64,000 nucleotides of DNA. Source: Thermospira aquatica (GTDB taxonomy: Bacteria; Spirochaetota; Brevinematia; Brevinematales; Thermospiraceae). The stretch is taken from positions 744,001-808,000 of the forward strand of contig NZ_CP073355.1 in NCBI RefSeq assembly GCF_023525255.1. The letters run 5' to 3'. The first letter of the stretch is position 1. Every line of letters starts with the position of its first letter. Both the position numbers and the translations under genes were made by a program. Below the pieces are notes generated by a model. It had not been told where the DNA came from, made no database searches, and saw only the letters and a program-made list of their open reading frames with translations. Positions 13,598-21,981 of the stretch are shown here, piece by piece.

Positions 13598-13882
13598 CTA
13601 CACCACCTGAACTATGGGCAAACGATTCCGAAAACGTTTATCATGTTTTTGAAGAACCTCAAAAATCTTTCGTTTCACAAAATACAATCCCCCCAGGTAC
13701 CGTACGAGCACCCCATCATAGGTGATTTTTGTACGATCAGACACATAATAGACGGTACCAACAAGTTCTACTTTTGTCCAATCACAGGTAAGCAGTTCAG
13801 GAAGCTTGGTGAGGATACTGGCGCTAATGGTGTTGTTCTTTACCGCATCAACATACATCTTCGCGAGAGCCGACGGATCCAT
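13598..13882 (-). CDS. Small conserved-looking protein, unknown
   Basis: 94 residues, no signal peptide or membrane segment. It begins MDPSALAKMYVDAVKNNTISA and ends with basic KHDKRFRNRLPIVQVV. I do not recognise the family. AAGGAG lies 5 bp before the ATG, which supports expression. Its mRNA leader would contain the structured segment at 13908-14063, so the two may be functionally linked. Confidence 0.55.
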   Translation of the reverse strand: MDPSALAKMYVDAVKNNTISASILTKLPELLTCDWTKVELVGTVYYVSDRTKITYDGVLVRYLGGLYFVKRKIFEVLQKHDKRFRNRLPIVQVV

Positions 13883-13907
13883 ACCAACTCCTTTTTTAAT
13901 ATTTTAT

Positions 13908-14063
13908 GGGGTATTGCTTGAACAATTTTTGGTCCCTTGTAACAAGGGGGGATCCGTACCTGTACTTCATGTTTCCCACAGAGGAGAAGCAAATCCATAC
14001 AGAGATCGGGAACCCAAATTTTTGGATATCGGACCCAAAAATTCTTTCGTCTCGCAATACCCC
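13908..14063 (-). ncRNA. Candidate structured RNA or leader (rod-like, about 156 nt)
   Basis: A perfect 10-bp pairing closes the segment: GGGGTATTGC at 13908-13917 and GCAATACCCC at 14054-14063. Directly inside it, AATTTTTGGTCC (13924-13935) pairs with GGACCCAAAAATT (14031-14043) with one bulged base. Further in, GTTTCCC (near 13971) can pair with GGGAAC (near 14008), and CCCTTG-TAA-CAAGGG (13934-13948) offers a competing hairpin. The strand is unsure. On the minus strand it would be the leader of the 94-residue gene; on the plus strand a T-rich tail follows. A 6S-like RNA is possible, but I could not match conserved bases. Confidence 0.4.
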
Positions 14064-14072
14064 ACAATCTTT

Positions 14073-14528
14073 TTATCTCAAAAAACTAAAAAACAACAAC
14101 CACTCTATGGGTTTGACCAGCGCCGCATAAAAAGAAGCCCCCAGTATAGTAGAAATATCAAATATCTTGAAATACTTGAGATACAGCAAAGCAAACCCTA
14201 TCACAAGCCATGCCCTGACAACACCAATCAAGGCTCCCAAAAATACATTCAAAAGATCTAGTTGTGTTTTCTTTTCTGGCAGACGGAGAGAAGCACTCAA
14301 TACCAGGAAGAAAATCACCGAAAGCACCAGCCCAAGAATATGACGGATCATACTATCCCTGGATATAAGAGAAACCAGAAAAACAATAATACCTGCCAAC
14401 ACCAGAGGCAACACCAAACGCAAAAGCCTGTAAAAAGCTCGATGAAAACCGTTTCTCGTATCGTAGTAGATAAAAGCCCCAAGAATAATCACCAGGATAA
14501 CGAGCGTAACAATATACATAGTGCTCAT
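14073..14528 (-). CDS. CvpA-like small membrane protein
   Basis: 151 residues with about four membrane helices (residues 3-20, 32-50, 63-80, 97-118). Hydrophobic pattern and spacing resemble the CvpA (colicin V production) family, including a conserved-looking GLVLSVIFFLVLSA helix and LGALIGVVRAWLVIGF. Function of this family outside E. coli is uncertain. Start at 14528 is chosen for the AAAGGAGG 6 bp upstream; upstream in-frame codons lie across the promoter. Confidence 0.55.
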   Translation of the reverse strand: MSTMYIVTLVILVIILGAFIYYDTRNGFHRAFYRLLRLVLPLVLAGIIVFLVSLISRDSMIRHILGLVLSVIFFLVLSASLRLPEKKTQLDLLNVFLGALIGVVRAWLVIGFALLYLKYFKIFDISTILGASFYAALVKPIEWLLFFSFLR

Positions 14529-15836: not shown

Positions 15837-17123
15837 TTAGCCCGTTGCGTCAAATAAAAAAGTACTCGAAATTCGAATCATTGCCTCATAAAAAAAAGTA
15901 CTCAAAAATTCCATACAGTTTCCTCCAAATTTTTGTTTTTTACATTCTTTTTTGAAGGCTGAAAAAGTTTCTCTCTTGAGCCAAGCCTTGTTAATTTTGT
16001 GAAACAAATCGAGAGCCTTATAAAGCCTTGTTAGGCGTTCCTTTTGTGCCTCACTTACATAAGAGCTTTCTAAAAGCCGTTGGTAGGGAGTTTTAATATC
16101 ATCATGCTTCTTTTGCACCTTGCTTCCGATTCTCTTTTTCTCTGTCATTTTCATAACCGGTTGAAAAAAGTTGGCATAAAGCCTGAGATACGCATAGAGT
16201 CGGTTCAAGTAGTAGACTTCTTCCTCGGTATCGTAGCGGAAGTATCCAACATTCTGGCGGACTATGGAATAGTTTTTCTGCTCAACGTAGCAGTTATCAT
16301 TGGAACGGGAGCTTCTCCCCCTTGTAAATTTTATCTGGTGCTTCTCACACCAATCGCGTAGAGGATGATTAATAAATTCAGCACCGGTATCAGAATCAAT
16401 TCCCCGTAAATCAAAAGGAAGTCTTCTTTGGACTTTTTCTATGGCTTCTCTTACCCATTTTGAAGCCTTGTTTTTGATTGCCACAAGTTCTGTCCAACCG
16501 CTCCAAACATCCACCATATTTAATGTTTGAGCAAAATCTCCCCGGCTATTTCCTCCCTCATGGGCAACCAGATCAATCTCCATAAAACCAGGGCAATTTT
16601 CATCCCACTCTGCCCACGTGCGTATAGCTATTTGTTGCTTTAACAACGTTCCAGGTTTTGTGCCTTTTCGTCCTTTTATCTCAAGCTTTTTACGCTCATG
16701 TTTCAAAAGTCGGTCAATACTTGAAGCACTTATATGGCGCAAGTTTTCTATAGCCTGTGGAGAACCGTGGAGATGTCCGTTTGCTAAGAGATTATCTAAA
16801 ACTTCATTGAGAATCGGCTTTAAACGTTTGCCACACATGTAGTTTTCAATTTCCCAGACCTTTTTTAGAAGTTTTAGTTCCTCTTCGCCGAATTTTTTCT
16901 TTCTGCCAGGTCTTTTGCCCTTCTTGGCTATGTCGGCTTTAAGGTAATTTTTCTTGCCTACATAGATGGTTTTTCCGTGCTGCCTCAAGAGCCTGGCGGC
17001 ATAGTTTCGGTTTTTTAAACCTGTTATCCTCACAAAGTAATCCAGTATCTCCATTTTTTCCTTTTTGCTGGCTTTTTGATATTGTTTTGCCGTTTCCCTG
17101 TAAATAGGTCTCCTTTCAAACAT
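15837..17123 (-). CDS. IS transposase, DD35E integrase core
   Basis: 428 residues. A basic helix-turn-helix N-terminus leads to an RNase H-fold catalytic core: first Asp in FMEIDLVAHEGG, second Asp in GIDSDTGAEFINHP, and Glu in NCYVEQKNYS. There are exactly 35 residues between the last two, the DD35E spacing of IS481/IS3-like enzymes. The start is the ATG at 17123 (MFERRP), with weak GGGGTGG upstream. The frame runs out through the IS end, and the TAA stop lies in the flanking GTTAG target duplication, so the host site supplies the last codon. Confidence 0.9.
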   Translation of the reverse strand: MFERRPIYRETAKQYQKASKKEKMEILDYFVRITGLKNRNYAARLLRQHGKTIYVGKKNYLKADIAKKGKRPGRKKKFGEEELKLLKKVWEIENYMCGKRLKPILNEVLDNLLANGHLHGSPQAIENLRHISASSIDRLLKHERKKLEIKGRKGTKPGTLLKQQIAIRTWAEWDENCPGFMEIDLVAHEGGNSRGDFAQTLNMVDVWSGWTELVAIKNKASKWVREAIEKVQRRLPFDLRGIDSDTGAEFINHPLRDWCEKHQIKFTRGRSSRSNDNCYVEQKNYSIVRQNVGYFRYDTEEEVYYLNRLYAYLRLYANFFQPVMKMTEKKRIGSKVQKKHDDIKTPYQRLLESSYVSEAQKERLTRLYKALDLFHKINKAWLKRETFSAFKKECKKQKFGGNCMEFLSTFFYEAMIRISSTFLFDATG

Positions 17124-17272
17124 CGCCACCCCAATTCCGGTTGGCGAGCTTGTCGAGCCACGGTTGGCGAGCCTGTCGAGCCATGAACTGGATTATTTTA
17201 CACAAATTTAAAGTACTTTTTTATTTTGAAGCAACGTTCCCTTTTCGAGTACTTTTATTATGAAGCAATTCG
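15841..17272 (-). mobile_element. Insertion sequence, copy 1 (DD35E, about 1.43 kb, 5-bp target duplication)
   Basis: One transposase gene between related terminal repeats. The end upstream of the transposase reads CGAATTGCTTCATAATAAAA inward; the other reads CCCGTTGCGTCAAATAAAAA. Each end carries two tandem versions of a motif of the form TTGCNTCA, A-rich run, GTACT, AAA. The 5-bp sequence GTTAG flanks both sides (15836-15840 and 17273-17277), a clean target duplication. The right-hand duplication directly abuts the -35 box at 17278. A second, decayed copy lies at 38583-40007. The IS family was not assigned. Confidence 0.9.
17138..17183 (-). repeat. Tandem 23-bp units with core GAGCTTGTCGA inside IS copy 1
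   Basis: Two 23-bp units (17138-17160 and 17161-17183) differing at one base, each containing GGCGAGC[T/C]TGTCGAGCC. They lie between the IS end and the transposase start. At the matching place IS copy 2 instead has the hairpin CCAGTTC-AAA-GAACTGG and a clearer ribosome site, so these units look like a later insertion into copy 1. Confidence 0.75.
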
Positions 17273-19266: not shown

Positions 19267-21981
19267 ATGACAGAAACCCAGAAGAGAGAGGATATTCTCA
19301 GAAACCTGAGAGAAAGAATTAAACAAGAACAGTGGACGCAGACCGCTATAAACGAGTACTCTGTTAAAATGTTTGTTGAACTGGATAACATCATCCATAT
19401 TGCTGTGGAAGAAGGCTTCCAGAACGAACTCAAAGAGCTCTGCAACGAGGCTCTCGCCAGCAAGCAAGAGAGTGTTATCGCAACCTACATCCTTGGCATG
19501 TTGCCCTTTGAAGAAAACTCGATTGGCAACAACCTGATACCCGATCTCATTCGACGTTTCCTCGAAAACAAAAAATACAAAATAGCTGAGTACCTGAGCG
19601 AAAAGCTCCTTACCTATCGGGAGGATCAGGAGGCTCTGAGAGCACTCGAAACCATCTATGAAAACCAGAACAACCAGGAAGAGCTTCTCAACATCCGCCG
19701 TCGTCTCGTACTTGTCGACGCCAAAAACGCCTCCACCGCAAAATATCTTGGGGAGTACTATGAGGCTCAGGGCGACAAGGATCAGGCAGCCTTTTACTAT
19801 CGGCTCGCTTTTGAACGTTACATCAAGCTCAAAACCATACGCTCCCTCGAAGAATTGTGGTCTAAAATGGTAAAACTTTTCCACGACGATACCAACCTTA
19901 TCCTGCTTCTTGCAAGAAAAATGCGAGAACTTCAAGGAGATGCCAGGGTGGCTGAAACGGTCTATCATGACTATGTTCACACCTTAATGAAAGCGGGCAA
20001 ATATCAGGAAGCGCTCAACATTCTGAAGATTATCATCGAATGGAAACCCGAGGATAAAACACTCCGCAAAGCACTCGAGGACTGTTATCGTGCTCTCTAT
20101 CAGGATCATTCCCAGCTAGAGAAGTACCTCAAACTCTCCAACATTGGGCAGACATGGAAGCCCTATCGTGATGCCATCCGCATCTTTGAAAGCCATATTG
20201 CTTTTGATGTAGGAAAATATGTTCAACACAAAAACTGGGGATTTGGACAGGTCAAATCCATCGAAGATGAAAACGTAATCATTGATTTTGAAACCAAACC
20301 AGGCCATAAAATGTCTCTTGATATTGCCCTTCGAGCCCTTACCGTTCTCGACGACAACCACATTCTTCTCTGGAAAAAGAAACGTCCGGAAGAACTCACA
20401 AAACTTCTCCAAGAGGATCCAACGCAGGTGGTAGAAATCATTTTAAAAAGCATGGGTGGTACCGCTTCCGCAACCCAGATCAAAGAATGGCTTGTTCCTG
20501 ACATTCTTTCAGAGTCAAACTGGAGCAAGTGGTGGCTGGTCACACGAAAACGTATCGAGAGCAGCAATACGATTGTACCCAGTCTCACCAAGAAAAACTT
20601 TTTTGAACTTCGTACATCTGAAGTCTCTGTCCTTGACGAACTGATAAGCAAGTTCAAAAAATCCGGCACCATGGAAAATAAAATCAAATACATTATGGAT
20701 TACAAACTCCGGGGAGGAAATCTCTCAGATGGAGCAGCCACCGCCATGAGTGCTTACTTTGAAGACATTCTCAAATCAAATACTGAAGCTCCAGAGCGAA
20801 AACTCACAGCCTTTTTGGTGTTGCGTTTCGTACACGGTTCAAACATCTCTTATGACGATCTTGACAACAGTCTCCTCTACAACATCAAAAATCTCCCCGA
20901 ATTCTACACCAACCTCGATATCGAACTCAAGAAAGAGCTTCTTGCATTGGTACGAAACAAGATCAAAGAATGGCCTTCAAAGTATGTGGATCTCATTACC
21001 AAGACACCCATGAACCGTCTTGATAACCTCATGCTTGAAGAGCTGATTGCCAGCGAAAACTTCAGTGCCATTCAGGAAATCATGGAAATAGCCTTTTCAA
21101 ACTATATCGAAAAACCAGAGCTTTTCCTGTGGTTTAGTCAACGGCTCATGGAAGAAAAAGAACTCTTGAAACGATTTGGTATCAAGGAAAATGATGTGAT
21201 GTTCCGACTTCTCGACATCTACGACCATCTTGGACAGGAAATCGATGACAAGGTTAACGTCGCTCAGAACAAACGGCTCCTCTCAACAATTGAGAGCATC
21301 CTTTTTGACAAAAAACTGCTCGATACCGTTATGGATCATATGGAACCTTCGATAGCCCTTTCTCTGTATACTCAGCTTGAAAACTCCGGTTACTTCCCCG
21401 ATGCCCAGAAAACAAAGTATAGAGAGGAACTCCTCCAGAAGTATCCTGATCTTAAGAATAAAGAAATTCAGGAAAAAACCAAACAGGTGTCTAAAATTCG
21501 TCCTCCTCTTCTTGTTACTCGCAAGAGTCTTGAAGCAAAACGCGCTGAGCTTAACCGTCTTGTAACGGTAGAAATTCCGGAAAATAGCCGCGCTATTGGA
21601 GATGCCATGGAAAAAGGAGACCTCCGGGAAAATGCTGAGTATAAAGCCGCCCTCGAAAAACAGGATCAGCTCAAGGCCGCTGTCGCACGGCTTGAAGCGG
21701 AACTTGCCAAAGCCAAAGTGATAGAAAAGTCTCGGGTAGACACCTCTATCGTCGATGTAGGTACCAAGGTTACCCTCAAAACCAATACAGGAGAAAAGGT
21801 AACCTACCAGATTCTCGGACAGTGGGATGTGGATTTTGAAAAGCAGATTATCTCCTATCTCTCTCCTCTTGGTGCTGCCCTCCTTGATAAACAAAAAGGA
21901 GATGTGGTAGAGTTTGAGTTTGGCGGAGAAAAGAAGGTATACACCATAGAAGCAATTGAAATGGCCGATTTCGAAGATTAA
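19267..21981 (+). CDS. greA: GreA-type transcription factor with long helical N-terminus
   Basis: 904 residues. The last 160 are a complete GreA: a coiled-coil finger with the acidic tip GDLRENAEYKAALEKQ, then the FKBP-like domain (ISYLSPLGAALLDKQKGDVV). GreA enters the RNA polymerase secondary channel and stimulates cleavage of backtracked RNA. The preceding 740 residues are helical repeats of TPR type (residues 1-300) with an embedded small beta domain near HKNWGFGQVKSIEDENV. Very long GreA fusions are known from spirochaetes such as Treponema and Borrelia. GAGGAGG lies before the ATG. Confidence 0.9.
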   Translation: MTETQKREDILRNLRERIKQEQWTQTAINEYSVKMFVELDNIIHIAVEEGFQNELKELCNEALASKQESVIATYILGMLPFEENSIGNNLIPDLIRRFLENKKYKIAEYLSEKLLTYREDQEALRALETIYENQNNQEELLNIRRRLVLVDAKNASTAKYLGEYYEAQGDKDQAAFYYRLAFERYIKLKTIRSLEELWSKMVKLFHDDTNLILLLARKMRELQGDARVAETVYHDYVHTLMKAGKYQEALNILKIIIEWKPEDKTLRKALEDCYRALYQDHSQLEKYLKLSNIGQTWKPYRDAIRIFESHIAFDVGKYVQHKNWGFGQVKSIEDENVIIDFETKPGHKMSLDIALRALTVLDDNHILLWKKKRPEELTKLLQEDPTQVVEIILKSMGGTASATQIKEWLVPDILSESNWSKWWLVTRKRIESSNTIVPSLTKKNFFELRTSEVSVLDELISKFKKSGTMENKIKYIMDYKLRGGNLSDGAATAMSAYFEDILKSNTEAPERKLTAFLVLRFVHGSNISYDDLDNSLLYNIKNLPEFYTNLDIELKKELLALVRNKIKEWPSKYVDLITKTPMNRLDNLMLEELIASENFSAIQEIMEIAFSNYIEKPELFLWFSQRLMEEKELLKRFGIKENDVMFRLLDIYDHLGQEIDDKVNVAQNKRLLSTIESILFDKKLLDTVMDHMEPSIALSLYTQLENSGYFPDAQKTKYREELLQKYPDLKNKEIQEKTKQVSKIRPPLLVTRKSLEAKRAELNRLVTVEIPENSRAIGDAMEKGDLRENAEYKAALEKQDQLKAAVARLEAELAKAKVIEKSRVDTSIVDVGTKVTLKTNTGEKVTYQILGQWDVDFEKQIISYLSPLGAALLDKQKGDVVEFEFGGEKKVYTIEAIEMADFED

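Follow-up and report, generated by a model that had tools for sequence, protein, structure and literature searches.

A divergent, single-copy RNA beside cvpA in Thermospira aquatica is very probably a 6S RNA

Many bacteria make 6S RNA, which imitates an open promoter and thereby captures RNA polymerase. It binds the RNA polymerase holoenzyme carrying the housekeeping sigma factor, is abundant and stable, and usually increases in the stationary phase. Members of the Rfam family RF00013 such as E. coli ssrS and B. subtilis 6S-1 form a rod with a closing stem, the junction J1/2, helix P2, a central bubble and an apical arm, and the template of the product RNA is located at the start of P2. The surveys Barrick 2005 and Wehner 2014 reportedly are likely to list spirochaete 6S RNAs; a literature search on 6S RNA and Brevinema, whose reach did not include these two surveys, found no paper. 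Within the spirochaetes, Bb6S of Borrelia burgdorferi, from another lineage of the phylum and likened here by its description, is increased under nutrient stress according to the available portion of the source (PMC6041397). In Lactobacillales, as far as the accessible part of the report goes, 6S RNAs missed in a first round with RF00013 were found by a clade-specific covariance search together with a conserved locus (PMC8414754).

The locus considered here lies in a window of 64,000 nucleotides, which is the whole stretch of Thermospira aquatica DNA that was analysed and to which positions without a locus label refer. Judged by sequence comparison, a segment of about 164 nt on the minus strand (13904–14067) is very probably the single-copy 6S RNA (SsrS) gene of this organism, flanked by genes for a CvpA-like protein and a 95-residue protein. 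One of two guesses in the initial annotation was a rod resembling 6S RNA, some 160 nt long, and it had proposed a covariance search against Rfam. A permissive cmscan of 4 kb with all Rfam families returned RF00013 on the minus strand from 14071 to 13899, covering model positions 1–187 of 187 with 36 bits and an E-value of 7.3e-5, and a genome-wide RF00013 search of the 2,515,453-base genome gave the same RNA as the sole match (E 1.1e-5). Matches to SmY (E 2.9) and 5.8S rRNA (E 5.9) at or beside the RNA were at chance level and were disregarded. The RNA remained unassigned because its 36 bits fall below the curated RF00013 cut-off of 46.4 bits, a curation rule and not a biological feature, so that pipelines applying this cut-off would skip it. 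The 6S guess was borne out by the full-length match, by orthologues at the same locus that exceed the cut-off, and by covariation. A transcript from the plus strand was ruled out by the scores with the covariance model R1, which were 165.6 bits for the minus strand vs 28.3 bits for the plus strand, the window's RNA being itself included in R1.

Both neighbouring genes are encoded on the minus strand. Directly upstream, the gene for a CvpA-like membrane protein (14073–14528) ends with its stop codon 5 nt before the RNA; its match to PF02674 (E 5.1e-4) is below the family cut-off. Directly downstream lies a 94-residue gene (13598–13882) belonging to a family of about 95 residues, whose start codon is 21 nt past the RNA in the window and 133 nt past it in the sister-family locus L018. 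No Pfam or NCBIfam family matched the 95-residue protein above cut-off, one member having a Pfam match at E 0.047. Its AlphaFold2 prediction reached a best mean pLDDT of 85.3 (five models, 59.4 to 85.3), the predicted fold gave no Foldseek match at E ≤0.001, and the best VIA-align Z of 3.2 was uninformative either way. As in E. coli ssrS-fau, a protein gene comes after the 6S gene in the same orientation. A simple consensus scan of 13700–14300 displayed no promoter-like site on the strand of the RNA and no terminator-like site, which is why the 6S RNA may arise by processing of an extended cvpA transcript. Elsewhere in the window, a 904-residue protein (19267–21981, plus strand) carries a C-terminal GreA/GreB domain, preceded by a long stretch that matches TPR weakly, and a 430-residue frame (15837–17129, minus strand) resembles an integrase-type transposase by eye.

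The claim that the segment holds more structure than expected by chance was confirmed, the minus strand folding at -54.7 kcal/mol (z -3.92) with none of 200 dinucleotide shuffles as good; the plus strand of the segment reached -53.7 kcal/mol (z -3.77, likewise 0/200), and the RNA of the congener locus L025 gave a folding z of -5.01. The closing stem consists of a 5' arm UUGUGGGGUAUUGC (14054–14067, minus strand), whose helix covaries in both alignments described below, and a 3' arm GCAAUACCCCAUAA (13904–13917, minus strand); the arms are 14 nt each and 93% complementary. The perfect 10 bp of the earlier closing helix (13908–13917 with 14054–14063) held, and its loop, given as 137 bases, was measured as 136 nt between the 14-nt arms. 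The second helix also recurred as described (13924–13936 with 14031–14043, 12 pairs and one bulged base) and corresponds to P2. In the predicted fold, its 5' strand AAUUUUUGGGUCC (14031–14043, minus strand) doubles as the predicted product-RNA template, and its 3' strand is GGGACCAAAAAUU (13924–13936, minus strand). A 6-bp hairpin CCCUUG-UUA-CAAGGG (13934–13948, minus strand) is predicted in the 3' central bubble; 13949–14015 (minus strand) form the apical arm and terminal loop, where one G-C pair of the window RNA is A-U in both congeners. The rod of the 150–200 nt class, with closing stem, central bubble and apical arm, is present, but the minimum-energy fold of the single minus-strand sequence is non-canonical and leaves P2 open. 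The imperfect tandem repeat ATCGG..ACCCAAA pointed out in the initial annotation is visible by eye at 14005–14019 and 14028–14042, although the ungapped repeat scan did not list it. On the plus strand, the copy at 14028–14042 equals the predicted product-RNA sequence, and the one at 14005–14019 is complementary to the beginning of the apical arm and to the bubble ahead of it.

A comparison of relatives for compensatory changes, also proposed at the outset, revealed covariation in two alignments, contrary to one of the two outcomes that the initial annotation had named as refuting. In the sequence alignment of seven RNAs (A3), 99.1% of the cells were paired and two-sided changes occurred in 6 of 32 pairs, two each in the closing stem, P2 and the apical arm. 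The covariation score was 0.324 vs 0.201 for shuffled alignments (0/500 as high) and 0.003–0.095 when the structure was slid; two of five measures were weak, since only two clades are represented: 44/500 shuffles came up to the number of two-sided pairs, and 441/500 did so for further pair types. In the alignment of eight sequences (A8), from which L018 and L039 were left out to keep antisense matches away, two-sided changes were found in 21/32 pairs and the score was 0.626 vs 0.281 (0/500; slid, at most 0.177); the fitting of this alignment to the model structure tilts the counts in its favour. P2 showed two-sided changes in 2/8 pairs in A3 and likewise in A8. Across 92 6S RNAs from 25 families of the phylum, a set that includes L026 and L028 (33.7 and 30.5 bits, below the cut-off) and excludes a partial match in G186, the true partners of the closing stem, J1/2 and P2 each beat swapped ones in 20/20 draws, with 0/2000 permutations as good. 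Within the genus, the RNA is 92–97% identical (156/167, 153/167 and 162/167 between species), vs 68–73% for cvpA (310/456, 313/456 and 334/459) and 72–81% for the 95-residue gene.

To place the RNA in its class, 18 Brevinematia genomes, divided into the window genus (g1) and the groups f2 to f5, were searched with each query. The two congeners scored 39.2 and 31.9 bits with RF00013, and all four genomes of the sister family f2 scored 55.7–59.6 bits, above 46.4, every copy lying between cvpA and the 95-residue gene. The covariance model R1 was built from seven g1 and f2 copies, and R2 from f2, f3 and f4 copies only, without the window genus; both derive from RF00013 hits and hence lend no independent support to the family name, and their E-values are rough owing to a shortened calibration. 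In f3, RF00013 gave the two copies no more than 27.5 and 27.1 bits and R1 gave them 95.7 and 73.8 bits, in the same gap between cvpA and the 95-residue gene. As a leave-out test, R2 recovered the window RNA with 86.4 bits (E 1.5e-15), no other match appearing in that genome at E up to 1, and the congeners with 100.3 and 91.2 bits, one of them having also an antisense match of 38.1 bits. Homology to the 6S RNA family is thereby detectable over the whole length, through the end-to-end RF00013 match, the f2 orthologues and R2 made without the genus.

The f4 genomes required a different judgement. RF00013 gave no match at their cvpA loci even at E up to 10, and the top-scoring R1 matches, one per locus, had 16.6–26.6 bits, values that alone are unconvincing because antisense matches of true 6S rods score 17–34 bits with this model. 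Each match started within 10 nt of the cvpA end on the same strand, two of them overlapping the last bases of cvpA, and the opposite strand gave only 3.1–7.7 bits. These sequences fold into 6S-like rods in which the P2 motif GGGGUCU or GGGGUUG stands against GGACCC. They were accepted as 6S-like despite the low scores because place, strand and fold agree, giving RNAs of 148–171 nt directly after cvpA: L121 1954–2124 (plus), L122 1329–1486 (minus), L123 1259–1410 (minus) and L124 1347–1494 (minus). In the f4 genome G008, a sub-threshold RF00013 match (17.5 bits) was seen on contig 8, which differs from the contig of the cvpA copy, and at L122 2363–2415 many weak Rfam matches clustered near 2370–2410 on both strands, as from a strong hairpin.

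Altogether, the CvpA-like gene occurs in 13/18 class genomes (three g1, four f2, two f3 and four f4), and a 6S-like RNA follows it directly in 13/13. The 95-residue gene occurs in nine (three g1, four f2 and two f3), with the order cvpA, RNA, 95-residue gene in 9/9. The five f5 genomes showed neither cvpA nor the 95-residue gene, and no 6S RNA with RF00013, R1 or R2. Of the 13 Brevinematia copies, four passed the Rfam cut-off, and nine either fell short of it or escaped RF00013. The analysis thus shows homology, fold, covariation, strand, synteny and copy number of this 6S RNA. The structured stretch is a common kind of gene that has strongly diverged in Brevinematales spirochaetes and is missed by the standard RNA library; the window's 6S RNA is a real, single-copy, divergent member of an already known RNA family. 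Unlike known RF00013 members, it scores below the cut-off, lacks by eye the UUCGUG-type closing-stem motif seen in most copies of the phylum, and carries a 5' hairpin whose formation, in predicted folds, competes with that of P2. It is also shorter than E. coli 6S (about 164 vs 183 nt). Its recovery by a clade model plus synteny parallels that of the copies missed by RF00013 in Lactobacillales, where the neighbours named in the accessible text are rarA and upsA (PMC8414754), unlike cvpA and the 95-residue gene here. Among 60 genomes including that of the window, 6S RNA was detected at E ≤0.001 in 28 and above the cut-off in 23, and in a phylum draw of 247 genomes it was detected at E ≤1e-5 in 87, a threshold that the window copy (E 1.1e-5) just fails. 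Outside the class, neither neighbouring gene was found near the 6S loci searched, with flanks of at most 1.5 kb per side and 72 loci in all, many of which were overlapping copies of Brevinematia loci.

The second guess of the initial annotation was a leader of the riboswitch type for the 94-residue gene, and a cis-acting leader, either riboswitch or autoregulatory element, would account for the RNA preceding this gene on the same strand in 9/9 genomes having it and for the ribosome site AAGGAG just 3' of the RNA. This guess did not survive the comparison: no riboswitch or leader family matched the RNA locus at E up to 10, the f4 genomes have the RNA after cvpA in 4/4 cases with no match to the 95-residue gene, the L018 gene starts 133 nt past the RNA, and the 6S match runs end to end, which together make a leader very unlikely. 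Another reading is a 3'-end element of the cvpA mRNA, acting in stability or processing without a free RNA. The position directly after the cvpA stop in 13/13 genomes and the consensus scan without an own promoter fit it, but full-length 6S homology, above the cut-off in four sister genomes, and the phylum 6S loci searched outside the class, whose flanks of up to 1.5 kb had no match to this cvpA, render it extremely improbable. Cutting from a cvpA transcript may still take place and would leave the 6S identity unchanged.

Look-alikes of the Ms1 type, which bind core RNA polymerase instead of the holoenzyme bound by 6S RNA, are described in Actinobacteria in the accessible part of PMC9130861. 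RF00013 is the best match at this locus, and the RNA retains the template sequence where P2 begins, for which a look-alike that binds the core enzyme would presumably have no use, so that an Ms1-type RNA is scarcely conceivable here. A 6S RNA remains the preferred reading.

For a 6S RNA, polymerase binding, product-RNA synthesis and release can be inferred from the family. The closing stem, central bubble and apical arm form a rod; by homology, its bubble would mimic an open promoter, and this rod would hold the RNA polymerase with the housekeeping sigma factor during nutrient shortage. The product-RNA start was placed at U14028 (minus strand, U as template) by alignment to the 6S consensus and the start position in E. 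coli. From there the predicted product is 5'-AUCGGACCCAAAAAUUC, equal to the plus strand at 14028–14044 and beginning with AUCGGACCC; its template GGGUCCGAU sits, on sequence grounds, where a 6S product-RNA template is expected, beside and through P2. When nucleotides return, the polymerase would copy the 5' side of the bubble from near U14028 through the 5' strand of P2; this synthesis would open P2, the 3' bubble would hold a local hairpin, and the polymerase would be freed. Folding predictions in which a product of 9 or 14 nt blocks the template retain the 6-bp hairpin of the 3' bubble, which the free RNA already shows in its lowest-energy fold. A 3'-bubble hairpin using P2 bases is likewise reported for E. 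coli 6S on opening of P2, in the available text of PMC8876501.

The genus RNAs may possess a second fold. The ungapped repeat scan detected an exact 9-nt repeat AATTTTTGG at 13924–13932 and 14017–14025, and the P2 5' strand AAUUUUUGG can pair either with CCAAAAAUU at 13924–13932, forming P2, or with the identical CCAAAAAUU at 14017–14025 in the bubble. The latter pairing belongs to an alternative hairpin of 12 bp within the 5' half (14016–14044, minus strand), which appears in the minimum-energy fold, is incompatible with P2 and has a loop that contains the predicted start site; its sequence is invariant in 3/3 species of the genus. Folding at 37 °C favours the bubble partner, the probability of P2 being 0.04, 0.01 and 0.16 in the three species, and at 60 °C the balance shifts towards P2 (0.55, 0.36 and 0.90), the two pairings then being about equal in the second species; at 70 °C both are predicted to weaken. 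It is imaginable, though in our estimation unlikely, that the genus 6S RNA would be a strand-exchange switch between the polymerase-binding rod and a closed form with the start site in the loop of the 12-bp hairpin, the predicted balance shifting towards the rod between 37 and 60 °C. Evidence for selection of this fold is thin: an exact 9-nt repeat turned up in 5.4% of 2000 shuffles, p was 0.034 for the 9-nt complement of L001, and the 5' segment folds no better than shuffles in the genus (p 0.147, 0.147 and 0.067). Covariation is silent on the matter because the region is invariant in all three species. A hairpin of the genus type, P2 with the distal 5' bubble, had median p of 0.26, 0.30 and 0.033 for three window choices in 25 families, giving no clear phylum-wide support. 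For B. subtilis 6S, the accessible portion of PMC8876501 describes a predicted pairing inside the 5' bubble as unconfirmed by probing.

Other 5' hairpins are found in the phylum. The f2 6S RNAs (L012 1501–1678, minus strand; L013; L015; L018) contain a different and stronger perfect 7-bp hairpin, GUAGACC/GGUCUAC, of -13.4 to -14.1 kcal/mol (p 0 to 0.003 vs shuffles), which in the predicted fold would hide the product-RNA template. In some 6S RNAs of family f23, a hairpin of about 8 bp seen by eye brackets the P2 5' strand and the start site with compensatory changes, UGCAGUAU/AUACUGCA and UGUCGUAU/AUACGACA, as in L050 1501–1683 (plus) and L061 1501–1682 (minus). A phylum-wide 5' hairpin of J1/2 with the template gave p 0.002–0.07 for 17 representatives in six settings and median p 0.007–0.046 for 25 families in four settings. 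The median p rose to 0.07–0.11 without f2, 0.12–0.30 without f2 and f7, and 0.033–0.13 without f1, f2 and f3; with the signal fading on removal of f2, or of f2 and f7, this hairpin was counted as not established.

The genus-specific second fold offers a testable idea on the tuning of 6S capture or release and, if true, the strand-exchange switch would make polymerase capture temperature dependent in the genus. For the phylum, the present results indicate that absence calls for 6S RNA in spirochaetes can be false, and that the cvpA locus rule together with two clade models recovers copies missed by the standard cut-off. Brevinematia, a little-studied class of spirochaetes, thereby gains a 6S RNA in 13 out of 18 searched genomes, vs four by the Rfam cut-off.
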